From: a virus
IMG/VR virus record: IMGVR_UViG_3300020595_000200
Location: 1 to 23,565 of that record
DNA: 23,565 nucleotides
Reading direction: 5' to 3' (one strand)
Shown: piece by piece, positions 761-22,894 of the stretch
Position numbering within the stretch: the stretch's first letter is position 1
Layout of the letters: every line of letters begins with the position of its first letter
Notes under the pieces: generated by a model
Database searches by the model: none
What the model was told of the DNA's origin: nothing
Seen by the model: the letters and a program-made list of their open reading frames with translations, nothing else
Position numbers and translations under genes: made by a program

Positions 761-1282
761 TTACTTCTTAGGCTTTACAATTTTAGATTTGACTGGTGCT
801 CTGGCACCTATTCTTTTGGCGACTGACTTGCCCTTGTTCTTGGCCTTTTTGATCTGTGCACCTTTCAACCTCAATGATGCCATTCCTGATCTCTTGGTCT
901 GTGCCATTTTCTTGCCTGCTATCTTGGCCTTGGCCTGCCTCTTCGCCCTGATCTTGGCACCCTTGACTGGATCTCTTTTCGCGAAACAGGTGCTGGGTTT
1001 GGCCACAATACGACCCTTCCTAGGACCGGATGAGCATCTGAAACCTTGCTTCACAGAGCCCTTCTTGGCACGCCTTAATATCTGGCTCACACCTTCTGCT
1101 ATCGCTGAATGGTCTGGATGTTCCTCGATGGTGTCAACCTCCAGTGCCGAAATATTTTCTGACACAACATCTTGTGGCACTACATTTTGTATCTGATGGC
1201 CTTGGGTGGCACTAGATGTTGTGGCACTAGATTTAGTATCTTGTGATTTGGTTGGCACTAGGGTAAGTTCTGTGATCTTCAT
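761..1282 (-). CDS. Highly basic, Lys/Arg-rich phage protein, 173 aa
   Basis: The N-terminal 65 residues are Ser/Thr-rich and then acidic. From about residue 68 onward the protein is strongly Lys/Arg/Ala-rich, like histone H1-type tails. A compact motif with two cysteines lies at residues 80-105 (C83 and C99, around RCSSGPRKGRIV and PSTCF). From memory this motif recurs in small proteins of marine T4-like phages, but I cannot name a function. Nucleic-acid binding or head packaging is plausible from the charge. A perfect T4 late box (TATAAATA) ends 5 nt upstream of the ATG, so late, near-leaderless expression is predicted. The antisense frame on the plus strand is a shadow. Confidence 0.8.
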   Translation of the reverse strand: MKITELTLVPTKSQDTKSSATTSSATQGHQIQNVVPQDVVSENISALEVDTIEEHPDHSAIAEGVSQILRRAKKGSVKQGFRCSSGPRKGRIVAKPSTCFAKRDPVKGAKIRAKRQAKAKIAGKKMAQTKRSGMASLRLKGAQIKKAKNKGKSVAKRIGARAPVKSKIVKPKK

Positions 1283-1295
1283 ACAGGTATTTATA
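1283..1295 (-). promoter_or_regulatory. T4-type late promoter, near-leaderless
   Basis: Read on the minus strand, the sequence is TATAAATACCTGT followed directly by the ATG of the basic-protein gene. TATAAATA is the consensus T4 late promoter, read by gp55 with the gp33/gp45 coactivators. The same 16-mer, including ATG, occurs again at 17901-17916 on the plus strand. With the usual start about 6 nt after the box, the transcript would begin at or within a base or two of the ATG. Confidence 0.75.
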
Positions 1296-1404: not shown

Positions 1405-1689
1405 ATGAACAAGATCAACTTGACATGGATGGATGTGTTAAATACACGTGAGATGAAGATATTCGAGATATACAACACAGATGAGAACATAGGTCCAGCA
1501 CCACGTGGTGCCTGCAACAAACCTGCTTCTCAACTGCCTGCATCATGGGTGTCTAGTTGCAAGAGCAAGGGCAGGATGAAACGTACAGGAAATCGAAATG
1601 AGAAGATAGGTGGACGTACACAGAAAGTTGCCGGCAAGCGGATCAAGGGTCAGAAGTACGGCGGGCCTCTTCCAGACTACTCAAAATAA
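1405..1689 (+). CDS. Small basic phage protein, 94 aa
   Basis: The N-terminal 30 residues are ordinary. From residue 34 the protein is rich in Lys/Arg/Gly, with two cysteines (C37 and C52) and a C-terminal stretch ending KYGGPLPDYSK. That tail resembles small conserved proteins of marine T4-like phages that I have no function for. The chosen ATG follows GAGGT with good spacing (position 1392 region). An in-frame alternative, M17 at 1453, is preceded by GTTAAATA (1437-1444) with an 8-nt gap, so a late near-leaderless shorter form is conceivable. DNA or RNA binding is inferred from charge only. Confidence 0.7.
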   Translation: MNKINLTWMDVLNTREMKIFEIYNTDENIGPAPRGACNKPASQLPASWVSSCKSKGRMKRTGNRNEKIGGRTQKVAGKRIKGQKYGGPLPDYSK

Positions 1690-4678: not shown

Positions 4679-4686
4679 CTTAAATA
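4679..4686 (+). promoter_or_regulatory. T4-type late promoter of the amidinotransferase operon
   Basis: CTTAAATA is followed by CCTT and then a GTG in the frame of the first amidinotransferase. The same CTTAAATACCT string precedes the gene at 15373. The 4-nt distance fits the near-leaderless pattern in the window and helps fix the GTG at 4691 as the start codon. Confidence 0.6.
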
Positions 4687-4690
4687 CCTT

Positions 4691-5605
4691 GTGCATATAT
4701 CTACCAAAAATGAATACGGAGAGTTGAAATCGATCATAGTCGGAAGTGTGGAAAACTTCGAGTGGCCAGAAAATGACAAAGAGTTTGATCAAGGAATTGC
4801 TCGATCCACTTATCACCAAACGCTCCACAGAGGCAAACCGCCACAGCATGTTTTGGATGATGCCAGCAGAGACTTGGATCTGTTGTCAGCAATTTTAGAA
4901 TACAGAGGCATTCAGGTCTACAGACCTGAGATAGTTAAACCTCATTGGGCCTACTCTGCCAGAGACATATTGTTGACAGTGGGAAACAAAGTCATTCAGT
5001 GTCCGACTCCATTTTCCAGTCGTGCTAACGAATTGGATTTGTATCCTTTCCTAGAAAATACACAATGTGAAATTATCAAGGCCCCTAGACCTAGCTCACA
5101 AGAAGATCCAATCTTTGATGCGGCCAACGTCTTAAAGATGGATGACAGGCTGTTGTATTCTCTTTCGCACTCGGCCAACGAAGCAGGCGCAGACTGGTTA
5201 CAACAACAGGTGGGAACCGAGTTTGAGGTAGTGAAATGGCAAGTGGTTGATCATGAAATCACACACATCGATTCAACTCTGGCCTCATTGGCCAAAAACA
5301 TTGTATTGATAAATTCATCTAGAGTAAAAGACGACCAACTACCAAACTTCATGCAGGACTACACTAAGATATGGGTTGACGACGTGACTGCTGGTACCTT
5401 CCATAACTTTCCATACGCTTCCAAATGGATAGGGATGAATGTCCTCTCACTAGATCCAGAAACAGTGGTGGTTGATGAGATTCAGACACAGTTGATAGAA
5501 AATTTAGAGGCTCATGGATTCAAGATAATTACTACATCAATGAGACAATCAAGAACACTTGGCGGTGGTTTCCACTGTGTGACCTGTGACATGGAAAGAA
5601 AATAA
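4691..5605 (+). CDS. Amidinotransferase (glycine/inosamine amidinotransferase family), 304 aa
   Basis: With a GTG start the protein begins MHISTKNEYGELKSIIVG, which aligns with the start of the paralogue at 8493-9479. The frame stays open upstream to an ATG at 4580, but that would add a hydrophobic stretch and cross the promoter and divergent gene. The family's catalytic triad is present: Asp in FDAANVLK (D143), His in THIDST (H192) and the nucleophilic Cys in GGFHCVTCD (C296). Members move an amidino group from arginine onto an amine (GATM, StrB). The likely acceptor here is an amino-sugar or cyclitol made with the nearby aminotransferases. Its stop shares an A with the next start (TAATG), so it is the head of a four-gene operon. 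Confidence 0.85.
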   Translation: MHISTKNEYGELKSIIVGSVENFEWPENDKEFDQGIARSTYHQTLHRGKPPQHVLDDASRDLDLLSAILEYRGIQVYRPEIVKPHWAYSARDILLTVGNKVIQCPTPFSSRANELDLYPFLENTQCEIIKAPRPSSQEDPIFDAANVLKMDDRLLYSLSHSANEAGADWLQQQVGTEFEVVKWQVVDHEITHIDSTLASLAKNIVLINSSRVKDDQLPNFMQDYTKIWVDDVTAGTFHNFPYASKWIGMNVLSLDPETVVVDEIQTQLIENLEAHGFKIITTSMRQSRTLGGGFHCVTCDMERK

Positions 5606-6702
5606 TGTTTAAAGTGACTCACCAATGGAATAAACTTAAAACATGTGTAGTAGGCAGTGCCTATCCCCCAGAACTGTTTGACTTCATCAAAGATGTAAAT
5701 TTAAGACAAATCTTTGAAACATTGGCAATAGAGACTGAGGAAGACATAAAAAAACTTGTGACTTTCCTCGAAAAATTTGGGATAAATGTGGTAAGGCCAA
5801 CCATGCCAAAAACCTTTAACGAATTCAAGATATCAAATGGATACATAGCACCCCCAATATCTGCTAGAGACTTCATGGCCATGATAGACGATAAACTTTA
5901 CTATCCTGGATTGCCTAATTTAAATCATGCCTGGATGGAGTTTGCTGGCACGAGAAAGATCAAGTCAAAAGATGCTCTACAGGATAAACAATTGAATCAA
6001 CAATGGTTGGAGTTTCAAAAGCAAGACAAATACATTTTTGACCAGAAGATTAGGTTCTATAAAGACATCTTCACCCTTGCACTGCAACAAGGAAATGAAG
6101 TTGTTGCCAGCCCAATAGATTACATGAACTCATCATTCATTACGAGGTTAGGCGATAGAATGATAGTGGGAACGCAGAATTATCATGACAATAATGACAG
6201 TATCAAGGATACATTTTCTCAGATGTTTCCAGACAAGGCCATATATGTGGCATCGAGTGAAGGCCACTCGGATGGATGTTTTACTCCCATATCCGAAGAT
6301 CTTATAATATCAGCCTACGACACGATAGATTACAACAAGATATTTCCTAATGCAGAAGTAATCTCGGTTCCAGCGGAGATAACTTTGAAAGACGATAAAT
6401 TCAAAAAACAGATGATGACTGCAGAACACAAATGGTTCTTGAAGGGCATGGAGAACAACAAGGATCTAGTGGAAATGGTTGATTACTACTTTAATACTTG
6501 GATCGGTAACGTCAAAGAAACAGCATTTATGGTCAACATATTGATGCTGGACGAAAAGAATGCAGTTTGTTCCACAGATAACAAGCAGGTCAGAGAAGCC
6601 ATGCACAGACACGGCGTTGAATTACACGTTACACCTTTTAGACACAGATGGTTCTGGGACACTGGAATACATTGCCTTACCCAGGATTTGGACAGAGAAT
6701 AA
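5605..6702 (+). CDS. Divergent amidinotransferase-family protein, 365 aa
   Basis: The N-terminus (WNKLKTCVVGSAY) and C-terminus (DTGIHCLTQDLDRE, C357) match the amidinotransferase fold, and a His is present in GHSDGCFTP (H221). The segment aligned with the catalytic FDAAN of its neighbour reads MNSSFITRLGDR, so the expected Asp appears to be N175. It is also longer, with an insertion around residues 105-160. It may act on a different substrate, act as a hydrolase, or be a non-catalytic partner. It is coupled on both sides by TAATG overlaps, so equimolar expression with the upstream enzyme and the dehydrogenase is likely. Confidence 0.78.
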   Translation: MFKVTHQWNKLKTCVVGSAYPPELFDFIKDVNLRQIFETLAIETEEDIKKLVTFLEKFGINVVRPTMPKTFNEFKISNGYIAPPISARDFMAMIDDKLYYPGLPNLNHAWMEFAGTRKIKSKDALQDKQLNQQWLEFQKQDKYIFDQKIRFYKDIFTLALQQGNEVVASPIDYMNSSFITRLGDRMIVGTQNYHDNNDSIKDTFSQMFPDKAIYVASSEGHSDGCFTPISEDLIISAYDTIDYNKIFPNAEVISVPAEITLKDDKFKKQMMTAEHKWFLKGMENNKDLVEMVDYYFNTWIGNVKETAFMVNILMLDEKNAVCSTDNKQVREAMHRHGVELHVTPFRHRWFWDTGIHCLTQDLDRE

Positions 6703-7883: not shown

Positions 7884-8496
7884 AAAAATTGGCATGGACA
7901 CAGTGGAGCAATTCGAAAAAGAAATTGCAAACTTCTACGATGCACCCTATGCCGTTGCAACAGACAGTTGCACACACGCAATAGAACTTTGTCTAAGGCA
8001 CAGGCCACCAGCACCGGGCATAGAGTTGTCTGTACCTGCAAGGACCTACATCAGTATTCCTTTCACTTTGATGAAATTGGATCTCCGATGGAATTTCGTT
8101 GATCAGGTGTGGCAAGATTATTATTACATCGGCGGCACAAACATCATAGACGCCGCGGTGTTCTTCCAAAGAGGCGGATACATCAGAGGAAACTATATGT
8201 GTCTAAGTTTCCAATTCAAAAAGTCATTGAGCCTAGGACGCGGTGGCGCAATACTATGCGACAATCTAGCCGACTACGAGCAATTGAAGATGATGAGTCA
8301 TGATGGCAGGAAAATTGATGCTCCATGGCGTGATCAAAACATAGCAGGAATTGGATACCATTATTACATGACTCCTGAAACGGCAGATCTAGGTATAAAC
8401 AAACTCCAAGACGCTGTCCCAAAACCAACACAGGGCAGTGACGATTATCCATATCTTCCAAACATGGATGTATTCAAATACAATAATAAAAATTAA
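7873..8496 (+). CDS. Short DegT/DnrJ/EryC1-type aminotransferase, 207 aa
   Basis: This is a paralogue of the 1739-2326 protein. It has TDSCTHAIELCLR (30-42), an IDAAV Asp (D93), the PLP lysine in SFQFKK (K117 by alignment), RGGAI (123-127), and a terminal GYHYYMTPETADLG block. The C-terminal domain of full-length family members is absent, as in its paralogue. The ATG at 7873 overlaps the dehydrogenase end by 11 nt. A second ATG at 7894 aligns better with the paralogue's start and is a real alternative. As the last gene of the amidinotransferase operon it could provide the amine that is then guanidinylated, if the truncated form is active alone or as part of a complex. Confidence 0.82.
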   Translation: MANKKIGMDTVEQFEKEIANFYDAPYAVATDSCTHAIELCLRHRPPAPGIELSVPARTYISIPFTLMKLDLRWNFVDQVWQDYYYIGGTNIIDAAVFFQRGGYIRGNYMCLSFQFKKSLSLGRGGAILCDNLADYEQLKMMSHDGRKIDAPWRDQNIAGIGYHYYMTPETADLGINKLQDAVPKPTQGSDDYPYLPNMDVFKYNNKN

Positions 8497-9479
8497 ATAT
8501 TTTTTCGTTCTACATCAACAGTAATACAATGGAAACAGCCACCCAGTGTCCGAGCATGTCTCATGGGTAGCATGGCAGAATCTATATTGTATCTTGCCAA
8601 CTCTTTCCTAAGATTTTGTTGATTTTCTTCTAGCACCACTAAACTTTCATTGATAGAAAGAAGATTTACGTTGATCCATGGGCTGGCATTACAGTGGACT
8701 GGGTGATGTCCTATGTCAACAGGCTCCGGTGCATTAATTATATCCCAATTACGCAATGGCAAAGGTAACTGTGACTTGTCCTTAATCCGCGAGGGATTTA
8801 CTAATAAGAGTCCTTCCCTGAGAAAAGCAATGGTGCTGTCCAAATGCATATAGGAATACACGTCTTCGATGGCATGTACTCTAGTAGACTGTCCCATTAT
8901 CTCCTGTAAAGTATCAGCGCCTTTACGATTACCACTGTTGCTCACAAGGTAATACAGATCATCATTGTGTTTTAGAATGTTGGCGGCGTCAAAGCAAGGT
9001 TCTGTTTCGTTCAAGGCAAGCACCTTAGGGTTGCCTACGCATCCAAAATTATACAAACTGTCTTCACGTTCTATAGTGATGTGATGCCTAACTGCATCGT
9101 ATCCATCAAAGAGTTTGTCATATGCCCGATGTTCATTGGCCCTCGCCCTTAAAGACATTGGTGTATAGACCACATTGTTGCCATGCACAAGCACTGTGTC
9201 TCTTGGACAGTATGTGTAATATTCCGGATCATGATCTTTATCTGGCCTCAACACCTTTATTTTTTCACCTTTTAAAAAATCAATAAAGATATCAATGTCT
9301 TCATTCGCTTCATCAATCACCTGCTGTGGATACAGGCCTGGCATTGGCAGGTCGCTGTCTTTCGGCCTGTCAGCGTAATTCACACACCTCAGGCTGATGT
9401 CATTGATTGGTATCTTGGCTCCTGTGGCATCTCCCACGATCACTGTCTTAAGTTGGCCGTATTCGTTCCTGCTTAACAT
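8493..9479 (-). CDS. Amidinotransferase, 328 aa
   Basis: The start at MLSRNEYGQLKTVIVGD is chosen because it aligns with the paralogue at 4691 and overlaps the upstream gene by only 7 nt; the frame is open to 9587 inside that gene. The catalytic residues are intact: D164 in CFDAANILK, H212 in MHLDST and C318 in GCFHCITVD. It shares RTLGG, DTLQ/DWLQ-type and PSRIKD blocks with the 4691 enzyme, so the two are real paralogues on opposite strands. The expected reaction is transfer of an amidino group from arginine to an amine. It is the last gene of a minus-strand operon with a glycosyltransferase-like protein and a hydroxylase. Its stop overlaps the convergent aminotransferase stop by 4 nt. Confidence 0.85.
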   Translation of the reverse strand: MLSRNEYGQLKTVIVGDATGAKIPINDISLRCVNYADRPKDSDLPMPGLYPQQVIDEANEDIDIFIDFLKGEKIKVLRPDKDHDPEYYTYCPRDTVLVHGNNVVYTPMSLRARANEHRAYDKLFDGYDAVRHHITIEREDSLYNFGCVGNPKVLALNETEPCFDAANILKHNDDLYYLVSNSGNRKGADTLQEIMGQSTRVHAIEDVYSYMHLDSTIAFLREGLLLVNPSRIKDKSQLPLPLRNWDIINAPEPVDIGHHPVHCNASPWINVNLLSINESLVVLEENQQNLRKELARYNIDSAMLPMRHARTLGGCFHCITVDVERKNI

Positions 9480-9964
9480 TTCAATCCAGTGACTTGTAAA
9501 ATATATCGATCTGCATTTCCTAGGTTTGCGGCCATGTGTTCCACACCATATCCCCACCCAAAGTAACTTCCGGCCGAGCCTGTGCATATTTGATCCTGTA
9601 TCCAGAGCTGATGTCCGGCCTTTTGATCATGCAGAAAGACAATGAATCTTTGTATATCTTGAACTTGCTCTTTTTTGATCTGATTCCTTGTGATGTAGGT
9701 AGTATACTTGTCGGTATGGTAGGGTAAAACTTTTCCAGGTTCCAGTTTATTGACAGCAACAACTTTTTTTGTGAGTGGTAAATCTTTAACAGCATCATAG
9801 AAAACGCTCAATAACTTTTCTTGGAAGCACATGGATACTCCAACGTTATAATTGGTTGTGTCGACTACCGCATTGAATTTTTCTTCATGACGATCGTTCT
9901 CGAACCATGGCAGGCCTGTGTAATTTTGTTCCGTCCATGTGACTGGAATTTTGCCTTTGATCAT
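9473..9964 (-). CDS. 2OG-Fe(II) hydroxylase, 163 aa
   Basis: This is a paralogue of the 2935-3483 enzyme, with metal ligands H83 and D85 (YHTD) and H143 (EHMAANLG) and the 2OG arginine R153 (DRY). The N-terminus is about 15 residues shorter than its paralogue, and the loop after the LPWFEN block differs. It couples to the upstream glycosyltransferase-like gene through an ATGA overlap at 9961-9964 and to the downstream amidinotransferase by a 7-nt overlap. The operon therefore pairs a hydroxylase with an amidinotransferase. The substrate could be arginine-, Asp- or sugar-linked; nothing in the sequence decides this. Confidence 0.82.
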   Translation of the reverse strand: MIKGKIPVTWTEQNYTGLPWFENDRHEEKFNAVVDTTNYNVGVSMCFQEKLLSVFYDAVKDLPLTKKVVAVNKLEPGKVLPYHTDKYTTYITRNQIKKEQVQDIQRFIVFLHDQKAGHQLWIQDQICTGSAGSYFGWGYGVEHMAANLGNADRYILQVTGLKC

Positions 9965-14532: not shown

Positions 14533-14540
14533 TATTTACA
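14533..14540 (-). promoter_or_regulatory. T4-type late promoter before the DUF1178 operon
   Basis: On the minus strand TGTAAATA is followed by ATAAT and the ATG at 14527. The 5-nt gap is the same as at 1283, 17901 and 20587. Confidence 0.5.
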
Positions 14541-14548
14541 TTATATAC

Positions 14549-14577
14549 TTGACTATCAACACTGTCTACTATATTAT
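14549..14577 (+). promoter_or_regulatory. Possible sigma70-like promoter(s) in the divergent gap
   Basis: On the plus strand TTGACT (14549-14554) lies 17 nt from TATTAT (14572-14577), just before the ATG at 14584. On the minus strand TAGACA and TATAAT are also 17 nt apart in the same gap. In AT-rich DNA such matches arise easily, so this is a weak call. Confidence 0.35.
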
Positions 14578-15299: not shown

Positions 15300-15358
15300 G
15301 TGTAAAGTATATATGTTTGTATCCAGTAGACTTTAACTATAATTCTGCTATAATAAGA

Positions 15359-15366
15359 CTTAAATA
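15359..15366 (+). promoter_or_regulatory. T4-type late promoter, near-leaderless
   Basis: CTTAAATA is followed by CCTACA and the ATG at 15373 (6-nt gap). The 11-mer CTTAAATACCT is shared with the promoter at 4679. Confidence 0.65.
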
Positions 15367-17900: not shown

Positions 17901-17908
17901 TATAAATA
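17901..17908 (+). promoter_or_regulatory. T4 consensus late promoter, near-leaderless
   Basis: TATAAATA is followed by CCTGT and the ATG at 17914. The 16-mer including ATG is identical to that in front of the minus-strand gene at 1282. No Shine-Dalgarno site fits in the space. Confidence 0.75.
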
Positions 17909-17913
17909 CCTGT

Positions 17914-18474
17914 ATGTTAACACCATTTTTAAAGTATGTATCAGAGGGAAAAGTGATAAGACGACATAGTGATTTGCAACGTTTTTCATTCCCAGAGGTA
18001 GCAGAAAGAATATATCTCAGTTTCTTAGCACTTGCCCTAATGAGTCAGAACAAAGACACAGAAGGATTCGTTAGATCATACGCCAGACAGACCATGGCCA
18101 AGGGCACATTCGACCAGGTGAGGATGATTAACAATGACCTAGCAAACATGCTGGCCATAGTGGCCGGAGATCCTGAGATAACCAAAAAGCTCAAGAACAA
18201 AAATCAAGCACAGGCCATGAGGCAAAGACTGCCAGTGCCTGTGATGGCGCTGAGGAGATACCTGAGGACGTGGGAAAATCATTACAGCAACCTTACACAG
18301 TTGGAGAGATCCCTGGGAATACAAGATGGCAACCTCAGGAACATTAGACGAGCGGTTGCCGATTACAACAAGTTGAATACAAGGATGAAGTTGCAGACCC
18401 TACACAGACTGCAACAGCAATTACACTCTAAACTGCCCAACACTGACATATTAAAGAAATTCAAGGAACTGTAA
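17914..18474 (+). CDS. Hypothetical helical phage protein, 186 aa
   Basis: The protein is basic and all-helical in look, with a hydrophobic FPEVAERIYLSFLALALM helix (27-44), a QAMRQRLPVPVMALRRYL region, and a Gln/Leu-rich C-terminal coiled coil (about 155-186). No known domain is recognised. The late box sits 5 nt upstream. The next gene starts 1 nt after its stop, so the three genes to 19175 form one operon. Confidence 0.72.
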   Translation: MLTPFLKYVSEGKVIRRHSDLQRFSFPEVAERIYLSFLALALMSQNKDTEGFVRSYARQTMAKGTFDQVRMINNDLANMLAIVAGDPEITKKLKNKNQAQAMRQRLPVPVMALRRYLRTWENHYSNLTQLERSLGIQDGNLRNIRRAVADYNKLNTRMKLQTLHRLQQQLHSKLPNTDILKKFKEL

Positions 18475-19260: not shown

Positions 19261-19266
19261 AGGAGG
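19261..19266 (+). promoter_or_regulatory. Consensus Shine-Dalgarno site
   Basis: AGGAGG lies 7 nt before the ATG at 19274 and decides this start against the upstream in-frame ATG at 19220. The following two genes have AGGAGA at 19682-19687 and 20112-20117, each 8 nt before the start. Confidence 0.85.
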
Positions 19267-19273
19267 ATTAAAA

Positions 19274-19675
19274 ATGGCAACGGAAAACAACACGACATTC
19301 GTGGCGGGAACACAATCTTTTCTAGGAAAAGAACTTGAGTTCATCACGATTGATGCAGGTGAGGAATTAGCGAATCACCTGTTGAAAAACGAGACAGCAA
19401 ACGCGATCGAGAACACAGTCAGACAATACGGTAACATCGTAGGTTCAGGCCCGTTATTCGATACGAATGCTTCTAGAACATACATAGTTGAAGGTACAGA
19501 CATGTTCGTTGGTGCACCAGCATCAGCAGGCGGTTCTTTCACATTAACTGAATCAGGCTCAGACGGTTCGTCAGTAGGTACTCTTACTGCGGCACTGAAA
19601 GCACTTGGAACAGTTGATTCAATTGATCTAAACGACTCTGGCACAACTGCCAAGATCGAAGACTTAACGATATAA
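19274..19675 (+). CDS. Probable abundant virion protein, trio member 1, 133 aa
   Basis: The protein is acidic, rich in Gly/Ser/Thr/Ala, and has no cysteine, in the style of small capsid decoration or fibre proteins. It shares a loose pattern with the next two genes: a hydrophobic strand ending in Asp (EFITIDAG), then a helix, then a GSGPLFDTNASRTYIVEG strand-turn-strand. With a consensus Shine-Dalgarno site, a late promoter and a terminator after the third gene, strong late expression is predicted. The exact virion location cannot be given. Confidence 0.75.
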   Translation: MATENNTTFVAGTQSFLGKELEFITIDAGEELANHLLKNETANAIENTVRQYGNIVGSGPLFDTNASRTYIVEGTDMFVGAPASAGGSFTLTESGSDGSSVGTLTAALKALGTVDSIDLNDSGTTAKIEDLTI

Positions 19676-20547: not shown

Positions 20548-20583
20548 AAAGGGCGGATCTATTTTTAGGTTCGCCCTTTTTTT
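20548..20583 (+). terminator. Strong rho-independent terminator
   Basis: AAAGGGCGGA (20548-20557) pairs with TTCGCCCTTT (20570-20579) as a 10-bp stem with one G-T pair and a 12-nt loop. A T run occupies 20577-20583. It ends the strong-RBS trio. Confidence 0.9.
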
Positions 20584-20586
20584 ACG

Positions 20587-20594
20587 AGTAAATA
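20587..20594 (+). promoter_or_regulatory. T4-type late promoter, near-leaderless
   Basis: AGTAAATA is followed by ATCAC and the ATG at 20600 (5-nt gap). It sits 3 nt after the terminator T run, as expected for the start of a new unit. Confidence 0.6.
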
Positions 20595-22886: not shown

Positions 22887-22894
22887 AATAAATA
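22887..22894 (+). promoter_or_regulatory. T4-type late promoter, short leader
   Basis: AATAAATA is followed by 8 nt and the ATG at 22903, giving a predicted leader of only a few nt. Confidence 0.55.

Follow-up and report, generated by a model that had tools for sequence, protein, structure and literature searches.

In a stretch of viral DNA of 23,565 nt (IMG/VR virus record IMGVR_UViG_3300020595_000200, positions 1-23,565; the whole stretch is called the window below), TAAATA boxes stand a few nucleotides before start codons, a placement that is enriched in the window and in related phages and is conserved in orthologous genes. Judged from the sequence, these boxes are very probably promoters that give leaderless or near-leaderless mRNAs, beside genes led by Shine-Dalgarno sites in the same genomes. 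According to the mechanism proposed here, the boxes would be -10-type promoter elements resembling T4 late promoters, transcription would begin with the A of the start codon or 1-3 nt upstream of it, and the resulting mRNAs would be translated through their 5'-terminal AUG without a Shine-Dalgarno site. Genes that are operon-internal, or that have the box about 15-30 nt upstream, would often carry Shine-Dalgarno sites. In the window's relatives, canonical sigma70-type promoters would obey the same rule, so that both promoter classes would feed leaderless initiation.

The boxes of the window and the features around them are the following, the distance being the number of nucleotides between the end of the box and the inferred start codon.

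1288-1295, minus strand: TATAAATA box, with the ATG of gene 761-1282(-) 5 nt on
1439-1444, plus strand: TAAATA box, with ATG 1453 8 nt on
4681-4686, plus strand: TAAATA box, with GTG 4691 4 nt on
14533-14538, minus strand: TAAATA box, with ATG 14527 5 nt on
15361-15366, plus strand: TAAATA box, with ATG 15373 6 nt on
17901-17908, plus strand: TATAAATA box in the gap between divergent genes, with ATG 17914 5 nt on
17914-18474, plus strand: gene (ORF) with a predicted leaderless mRNA, conserved in relatives
19262-19276, plus strand: Shine-Dalgarno GGAGG, 7 nt before ATG 19274, a longer-leader gene listed as a contrast case
20551-20583, plus strand: intrinsic-terminator-like hairpin with a T run, just upstream of the 20589 box and also present in the relatives inspected
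20589-20594, plus strand: TAAATA box, with ATG 20600 5 nt on
22889-22894, plus strand: TAAATA box, with ATG 22903 8 nt on, the gene being virion structural by PHROG match

The boxes and starts named in an earlier note on this DNA are all present, at 5 nt for 1282(-), 14527(-), 17914 and 20600, 6 nt for 15373, 8 nt for 22903 and 4 nt for the GTG at 4691; the box at 1439-1444 was absent from its list. The 16-mer TATAAATACCTGTATG, said there to occur twice, has exactly two copies in the window, at 1280-1295(-) and 17901-17916(+), and the Shine-Dalgarno site ascribed to the longer-leader 19274 gene is indeed the consensus, AAAGGAGG.

The number of boxes in the window is close to that expected by chance, with 14 TAAATA against 12.45 in dinucleotide shuffles, and the two TATAAATA octamers (0.73 expected) were equalled in 18 of 100 shuffles. 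Their placement was scored as an ATG 4-8 nt beyond TAAATA that opens an ORF of 50 codons or more, occurrences of 14 other arrangements of the same six letters serving as the control. Such an ATG follows 7 of the 14 boxes and 9 of the 235 permuted hexamers (Fisher p 3e-6). An eighth box, at 4681-4686, precedes a GTG start instead of an ATG. This GTG sits within a longer ORF that opens at ATG 4580; the PHROG match starts at residue 38 of the longer ORF, corresponding to position 4691, and so makes GTG 4691 a plausible start; two sequences with an N-terminus similar to that of the 4691 gene have an ATG 5 nt after the box. The ORFs at 4691-5605, 5605-6702 and 8493-9587(-) all match phrog_25854, of unknown function, and form a local paralogue group.

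When box-to-start spacing was mapped in related phages against permuted hexamers, the genome-wide enrichment expected in the earlier note was found across the clade contigs. A start lies 4-8 nt from TAAATA in 14/31 occurrences in G001, 8/30 in G002, 11/30 in G003, 11/28 in G004, 9/16 in G005, 8/17 in G006, 7/19 in G007, 31/92 in G010, 16/47 in G011 and 14/36 in G012, counts that are not independent because the contigs share gene content, for which weighting by gene family corrects only partly. The corresponding fraction for permuted hexamers is 0.02-0.05 (Fisher p 3e-4 to 3e-11 across clade contigs). The commonest near spacing is 5 nt in each of these larger contigs, and few boxes in the clade lie 4 nt or less from the start, which is what a need for the RNA to hold the entire AUG would predict. 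When every hexamer was ranked at every position ahead of ATGs that open an ORF, the pooled clade had TAAATA at 5 nt at the top (37 versus 3.0 per position, 1094 starts), followed by Shine-Dalgarno words. The same combination came first in Pelagibacter phage HTVC008M (12 versus 0.76); in G010 alone TATAAT at 6 nt led the scan, and TAAATA at 5 and 6 nt ranked third and fourth.

The near spacing is unevenly distributed among other phages. Nearer marine relatives have 82 of 197 boxes at 4-8 nt; the distant relatives (contigs L401-L460) peak mainly at about 17-30 nt, with a minor, sharp peak at 5 nt (18/582). HTVC008M is enriched, with 17/186 boxes at 4-8 nt, 12 of them at 5 nt, and Pelagibacter phage Mosig weakly so (10/241, p 0.09; six at 5 nt). 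No enrichment at 4-8 nt was seen in T4 (5/225), Melnitz-2 (4/113), Syn9 (1/132), P-HM2 (3/136), C48C1 (2/105) or S-PM2 (1/162), none of the 27 boxes of Cr30 has a start at that distance, and the jumbo phages Atu_ph07, Phosso, RaK2, PA5oct and Vibrio 2.275.O gave no such enrichment on reversed-pattern counts only. The boxes of T4 and three cyanophages lie mostly about 19-29 nt upstream of the start.

The box is retained gene by gene. In an orthologue set of 141 related IMG/VR loci and two window-derived loci, which are related and not independent sequences, the box stands at 5 nt in 82/82 upstream regions of gene 17914, 30/30 of gene 14527, 15/15 of gene 20600 and 4/4 of gene 1282(-), the family of the last having it at 5 nt in 10/10. 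It is present in 75/75 regions of gene 15373 (69 at 6 nt, six at 8 nt) and in 42/42 of gene 22903 (26 at 8 nt, ten at 5 nt, four at 7 nt, and two with boxes at both 11 and 5 nt), and the gene 1453 family (n=10) has it at 8 nt in nine members and at 6 nt in one. Gene 18501, which has no box in the window, has none in 47 orthologous upstream regions. All six box columns are invariant in each of the five gene families tested, where the mean conservation of 25 upstream columns is 0.74-0.86; in the gene 17914 family, 72 distinct sequences share six invariant box columns flanked by 25 columns with a mean of 0.82.

Transcription by bacterial RNA polymerase tends to start with a purine at +1 preceded by a pyrimidine at -1, and the geometry of the T4 late promoter indicates where these positions should fall. 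The first T of its 8-bp box is placed at -13 in the part of a review dealing with this promoter (PMC2988020); the box thus occupies -13 to -6, and the A of an AUG that follows after 5 nt falls on +1. At a spacing of 5 nt, a pyrimidine precedes the ATG in 63/66 box genes and in 51/87 controls. For spacings of 7-8 nt, a pyrimidine-purine step occupies the predicted -1/+1 in 29/31 against 45/161 (p 4e-12), and for 6 nt it does so in 13/23 against 19/111; at 9-12 nt the difference was not significant (5/13 against 77/312). Weighting by gene family gave the same picture at 5, 7 and 8 nt and a mixed one at 6 nt. An A directly before the ATG occurs in none of 37 box genes versus 54% of 239 Shine-Dalgarno genes. 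No conserved -35 element was detected, no column between -45 and -12 exceeding 0.45 for one base in 72 families; the core TAAATA is at the expected place, and the first two octamer positions (-13 and -12) are not conserved in the clade. The leaderless mRNAs predicted in the earlier note thus gain strong support from spacing, initiator and orthologues, but spacings of 6-8 nt predict leaders of 0-3 nt, not strictly none.

Shine-Dalgarno sites are scarcer where a box is near. In gene families with near boxes, a Shine-Dalgarno motif occurs in 16/457 sequences that have the near box versus 138/425 that lack it, a difference that is partly mechanical, as the box fills the space. In the gene 15675 family the motif is found in 72/72 sequences without a near box and in 0/10 with one. 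A Shine-Dalgarno motif comes after 23/49 of the clade boxes at 14-32 nt, and near boxes leave scant room for it. In one family of virion genes, 13 sequences carry the box at 5-9 nt and 26 carry it at 15-28 nt. With the start taken as the first candidate having a box within 45 nt, a choice that favours finding boxes, the gp3 box lies at 24, 22 and 21 nt in S-PM2, Melnitz-2 and C48C1 and at 5 nt in Mosig and HTVC008M; orthologues of T4 late genes with a box fall into two groups in HTVC008M (0, 5, 5, 5, 18, 19, 30 nt) and in Mosig (5, 5, 20, 20, 22, 25, 25 nt); and T4 late genes with a box have it at 9, 14, 24, 26, 27, 28, 28, 28 and 35 nt. HTVC008M and Mosig, both T4-like Pelagibacter phages with gp55 homologues, therefore hold near and far boxes side by side. 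That two translation modes coexist, as had been proposed, is strongly supported by the spacing enrichment, the initiator, the conservation in orthologues and the occurrence of the same genes with the box at 5-9 or 15-28 nt in different phages.

A fixed spacing to the start codon, at genes that have no Shine-Dalgarno site, would also be seen if TAAATA were a translation signal, an A/U-rich substitute for Shine-Dalgarno within a longer transcript. Some near boxes indeed stand at genes classed as operon-internal, for instance 14/136 in G010, a classing too crude to decide the matter. This reading is nevertheless improbable. The hexamer also occurs about 15-30 nt ahead of starts, frequently accompanied by a separate Shine-Dalgarno site, in T4, in cyanophages, in distant relatives and even in the same genes, and the pyrimidine-purine step keeps a fixed distance from the box and not from the ATG. 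Moreover, the terminator-like hairpin is directly upstream of the 20589 box, and sigma70 TTGACA-N17-TATAAT elements occur at the same spacing.

These sigma70-type elements extend the promoter reading beyond the TAAATA box. In G010, TATAAT is over-represented 5-7 nt before the ATG (13 of 37 within 0-49 nt, p 1e-7), most of the 13 having a TTGACA-like element 16-17 nt further upstream. Strict sites, defined by at most one mismatch to TTGACA plus TATAAT and scored if an ORF start is 3-59 nt away, have the start at 4-8 nt in 39/79 cases in the window and clade contigs versus 12/86 in nine other phages (summed). The window alone contributes 0/1, its one site having the start at 12 nt. The earlier note had presented the close placement as a trait of late boxes; since sigma70-type promoters of the relatives are placed likewise, the late box is not alone in this arrangement. 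Two such elements accompany boxes in the window:

14540-14568, minus strand: sigma70-like promoter TAGACA-N17-TATAAT, directly upstream of the 14533 box; this is the window's one strict site
15327-15354, plus strand: sigma70-like promoter TAGACT-N16-TATAAT, upstream of the 15361 box, with similar sequence in the relatives inspected

Together with the TAAATA boxes, these elements may form tandem early and late promoters for two genes. They bear on a second alternative, that the boxes are true late promoters whose main transcripts are longer and come from upstream promoters, the near box being minor for translation. Pairs of early and late promoters are described for cyanophages in the part of a published account that concerns them (PMC2984593). 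However, the two upstream elements would themselves give leaders of about 5-12 nt without a Shine-Dalgarno site, and a spacing kept in all orthologous regions of genes 17914 and 14527 (82/82 and 30/30) would need a reason, so that we regard this alternative as slightly less probable even than a translation signal. Chance, or an artefact of A/T-rich intergenic sequence and start-codon choice, is very improbable: the unexceptional number of boxes in the window would agree with it, but permuted hexamers of equal composition do not share the placement, the box columns are invariant in five gene families, and T4, with its low GC content, shows no enrichment of the near spacing.

Promoters of leaderless or near-leaderless mRNAs thus remain the preferred reading of the boxes, and the phage that carries them can be placed as follows. 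The clade shares nrdA, nrdB and several auxiliary genes with T4-like marine phages. The phage does not show the T4 virion gene set (gp23, gp20, gp17, gp18 and others): among 19 models of T4 late genes, gp9 alone gave a match in G010 (172 kb and perhaps incomplete); most of these models matched in nine isolate phages. Virion proteins of the window clade match those of the jumbo phages RaK2, Atu_ph07, Phosso and PA5oct. Judged by its virion genes, the window phage is not a T4 relative and is nearer the RaK2/Atu_ph07/PA5oct jumbo group. Jumbo phage CBB is a member of the wider group that these genes indicate.

Searches of the clade sequences, which are incomplete genomes, with T4 gp55 profiles, Pfam sigma70 region 2, two PHROG families and a RaK2-type model yielded no gp55-type sigma, and neither gp33 nor gp45 homologues were detected in these sequences. 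A gp55-type sigma was found in RaK2, Atu_ph07, HTVC008M and two of seven contigs of distant relatives of the clade. Contigs carrying the sigma of the distant relatives (best 80 of 588) proved not to be members of the window clade; their boxes are leadered, with 178 of 830 at 17-30 nt and 47 at 4-8 nt. The label 'T4 late' used in the earlier note is therefore an analogy: related phages carry a gp55-type sigma, but the virion genes are not T4-like and the clade has yielded no such factor. Late timing of the boxes, and their recognition by a gp55-like sigma, would follow by the same analogy. PHROG annotation of 59 distinct G010 proteins, out of 214 ORFs, gave no sigma factor, convincing terminase or major capsid gene, and G010 may thus be incomplete or too divergent; it has no terminal overlap. 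G010 also encodes, at L319:5236-7071, a protein related to one that carries the annotation adenylate/guanylate cyclase in phages of Pelagibacter and Methylophilales. Five clade contigs have tmRNA genes of the permuted, two-piece kind whose tag peptides are related, at L317:6051-6425, L327:765-1134, L331:3280-3649, L188:4734-5104(-) and L194:17427-17779(-).

The host was sought through thymidylate synthase in bacterial genomes, which pointed to two MAGs under the labels Rickettsiales and Candidatus Pelagibacter; the sequence retrieved from them consisted mostly of phage contigs of this or related lineages and gives only a weak hint of a SAR11-like host. The two MAGs hold contigs of this phage lineage (L363, L364 and stretches L368-L379) and look phage-contaminated. 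Strict sigma70 sites in 12 other genomes of the MAGs' family numbered five, in four genomes, too few to judge leaderless starts in the host.

As a tentative wider proposal, to which we give slightly less than an even chance, an entire lytic marine phage lineage has switched to leaderless initiation at its sigma70-type early and T4-late-type promoters alike, Shine-Dalgarno sites persisting mainly at genes that have leaders or lie within operons; SAR11 T4-like phages have moved likewise for part of their late genes. This would suggest a shared preference on the side of the host ribosome or a phage-driven change of initiation during infection. The boxes provide a testable, sequence-level claim on translation initiation in uncultured marine phages, and they offer natural experiments in which one gene has the same promoter box either 5 nt or about 25 nt from its start codon. 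HTVC008M and Mosig infect the cultured Candidatus Pelagibacter ubique HTCC1062, which makes 5'-end mapping feasible. If the claim is true, two initiation modes can serve a single T4-type late programme, and gene-calling programs that look for Shine-Dalgarno sites might set starts wrongly in such genomes.

No report of this arrangement, that is, of leaderless late transcripts in T4-like, marine or Pelagibacter phages, was found in the open-access literature searched. The nearest known system is the T4 late promoter, which depends on gp55, gp33 and gp45 and which, in the portion of the review that describes it, is similar in its TAAATA core, in having no conserved -35 and in a box geometry that would put +1 five nt beyond the box (PMC2988020). 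It differs in that T4 boxes are mostly 20-29 nt before the ATG, often with a Shine-Dalgarno site, against 5-8 nt here; in addition, the first two octamer positions are unconserved here and gp55 was not found in the incomplete genomes of the clade. In CBB, the ATAAATA motif upstream of structural genes is the same as that of the clade boxes, and a gp55-like sigma is present, with gp33 and gp45 not detected; leaderless spacing is not among the features given for the motif in the section of the CBB report that describes it (PMC5259590). A survey of TA-led genes took a -10-type element lying about 10-12 nt ahead of the start codon as evidence of leaderless mRNA; in the portion that sets out this criterion it dealt with bacterial and archaeal genomes and a sigma70-like TANNNT, whereas the promoters described here belong to phages and include a T4-late-type box (PMC3160421). 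Phage transcripts are often leaderless according to a passing remark in one article (PMC5312081). The lambda cI mRNA, in the passage of a published account devoted to it, is likewise a phage mRNA that begins at its own AUG, but it represents one regulatory gene of a temperate phage (PMC9031893), while the arrangement described here extends over tens of gene families in one phage lineage.
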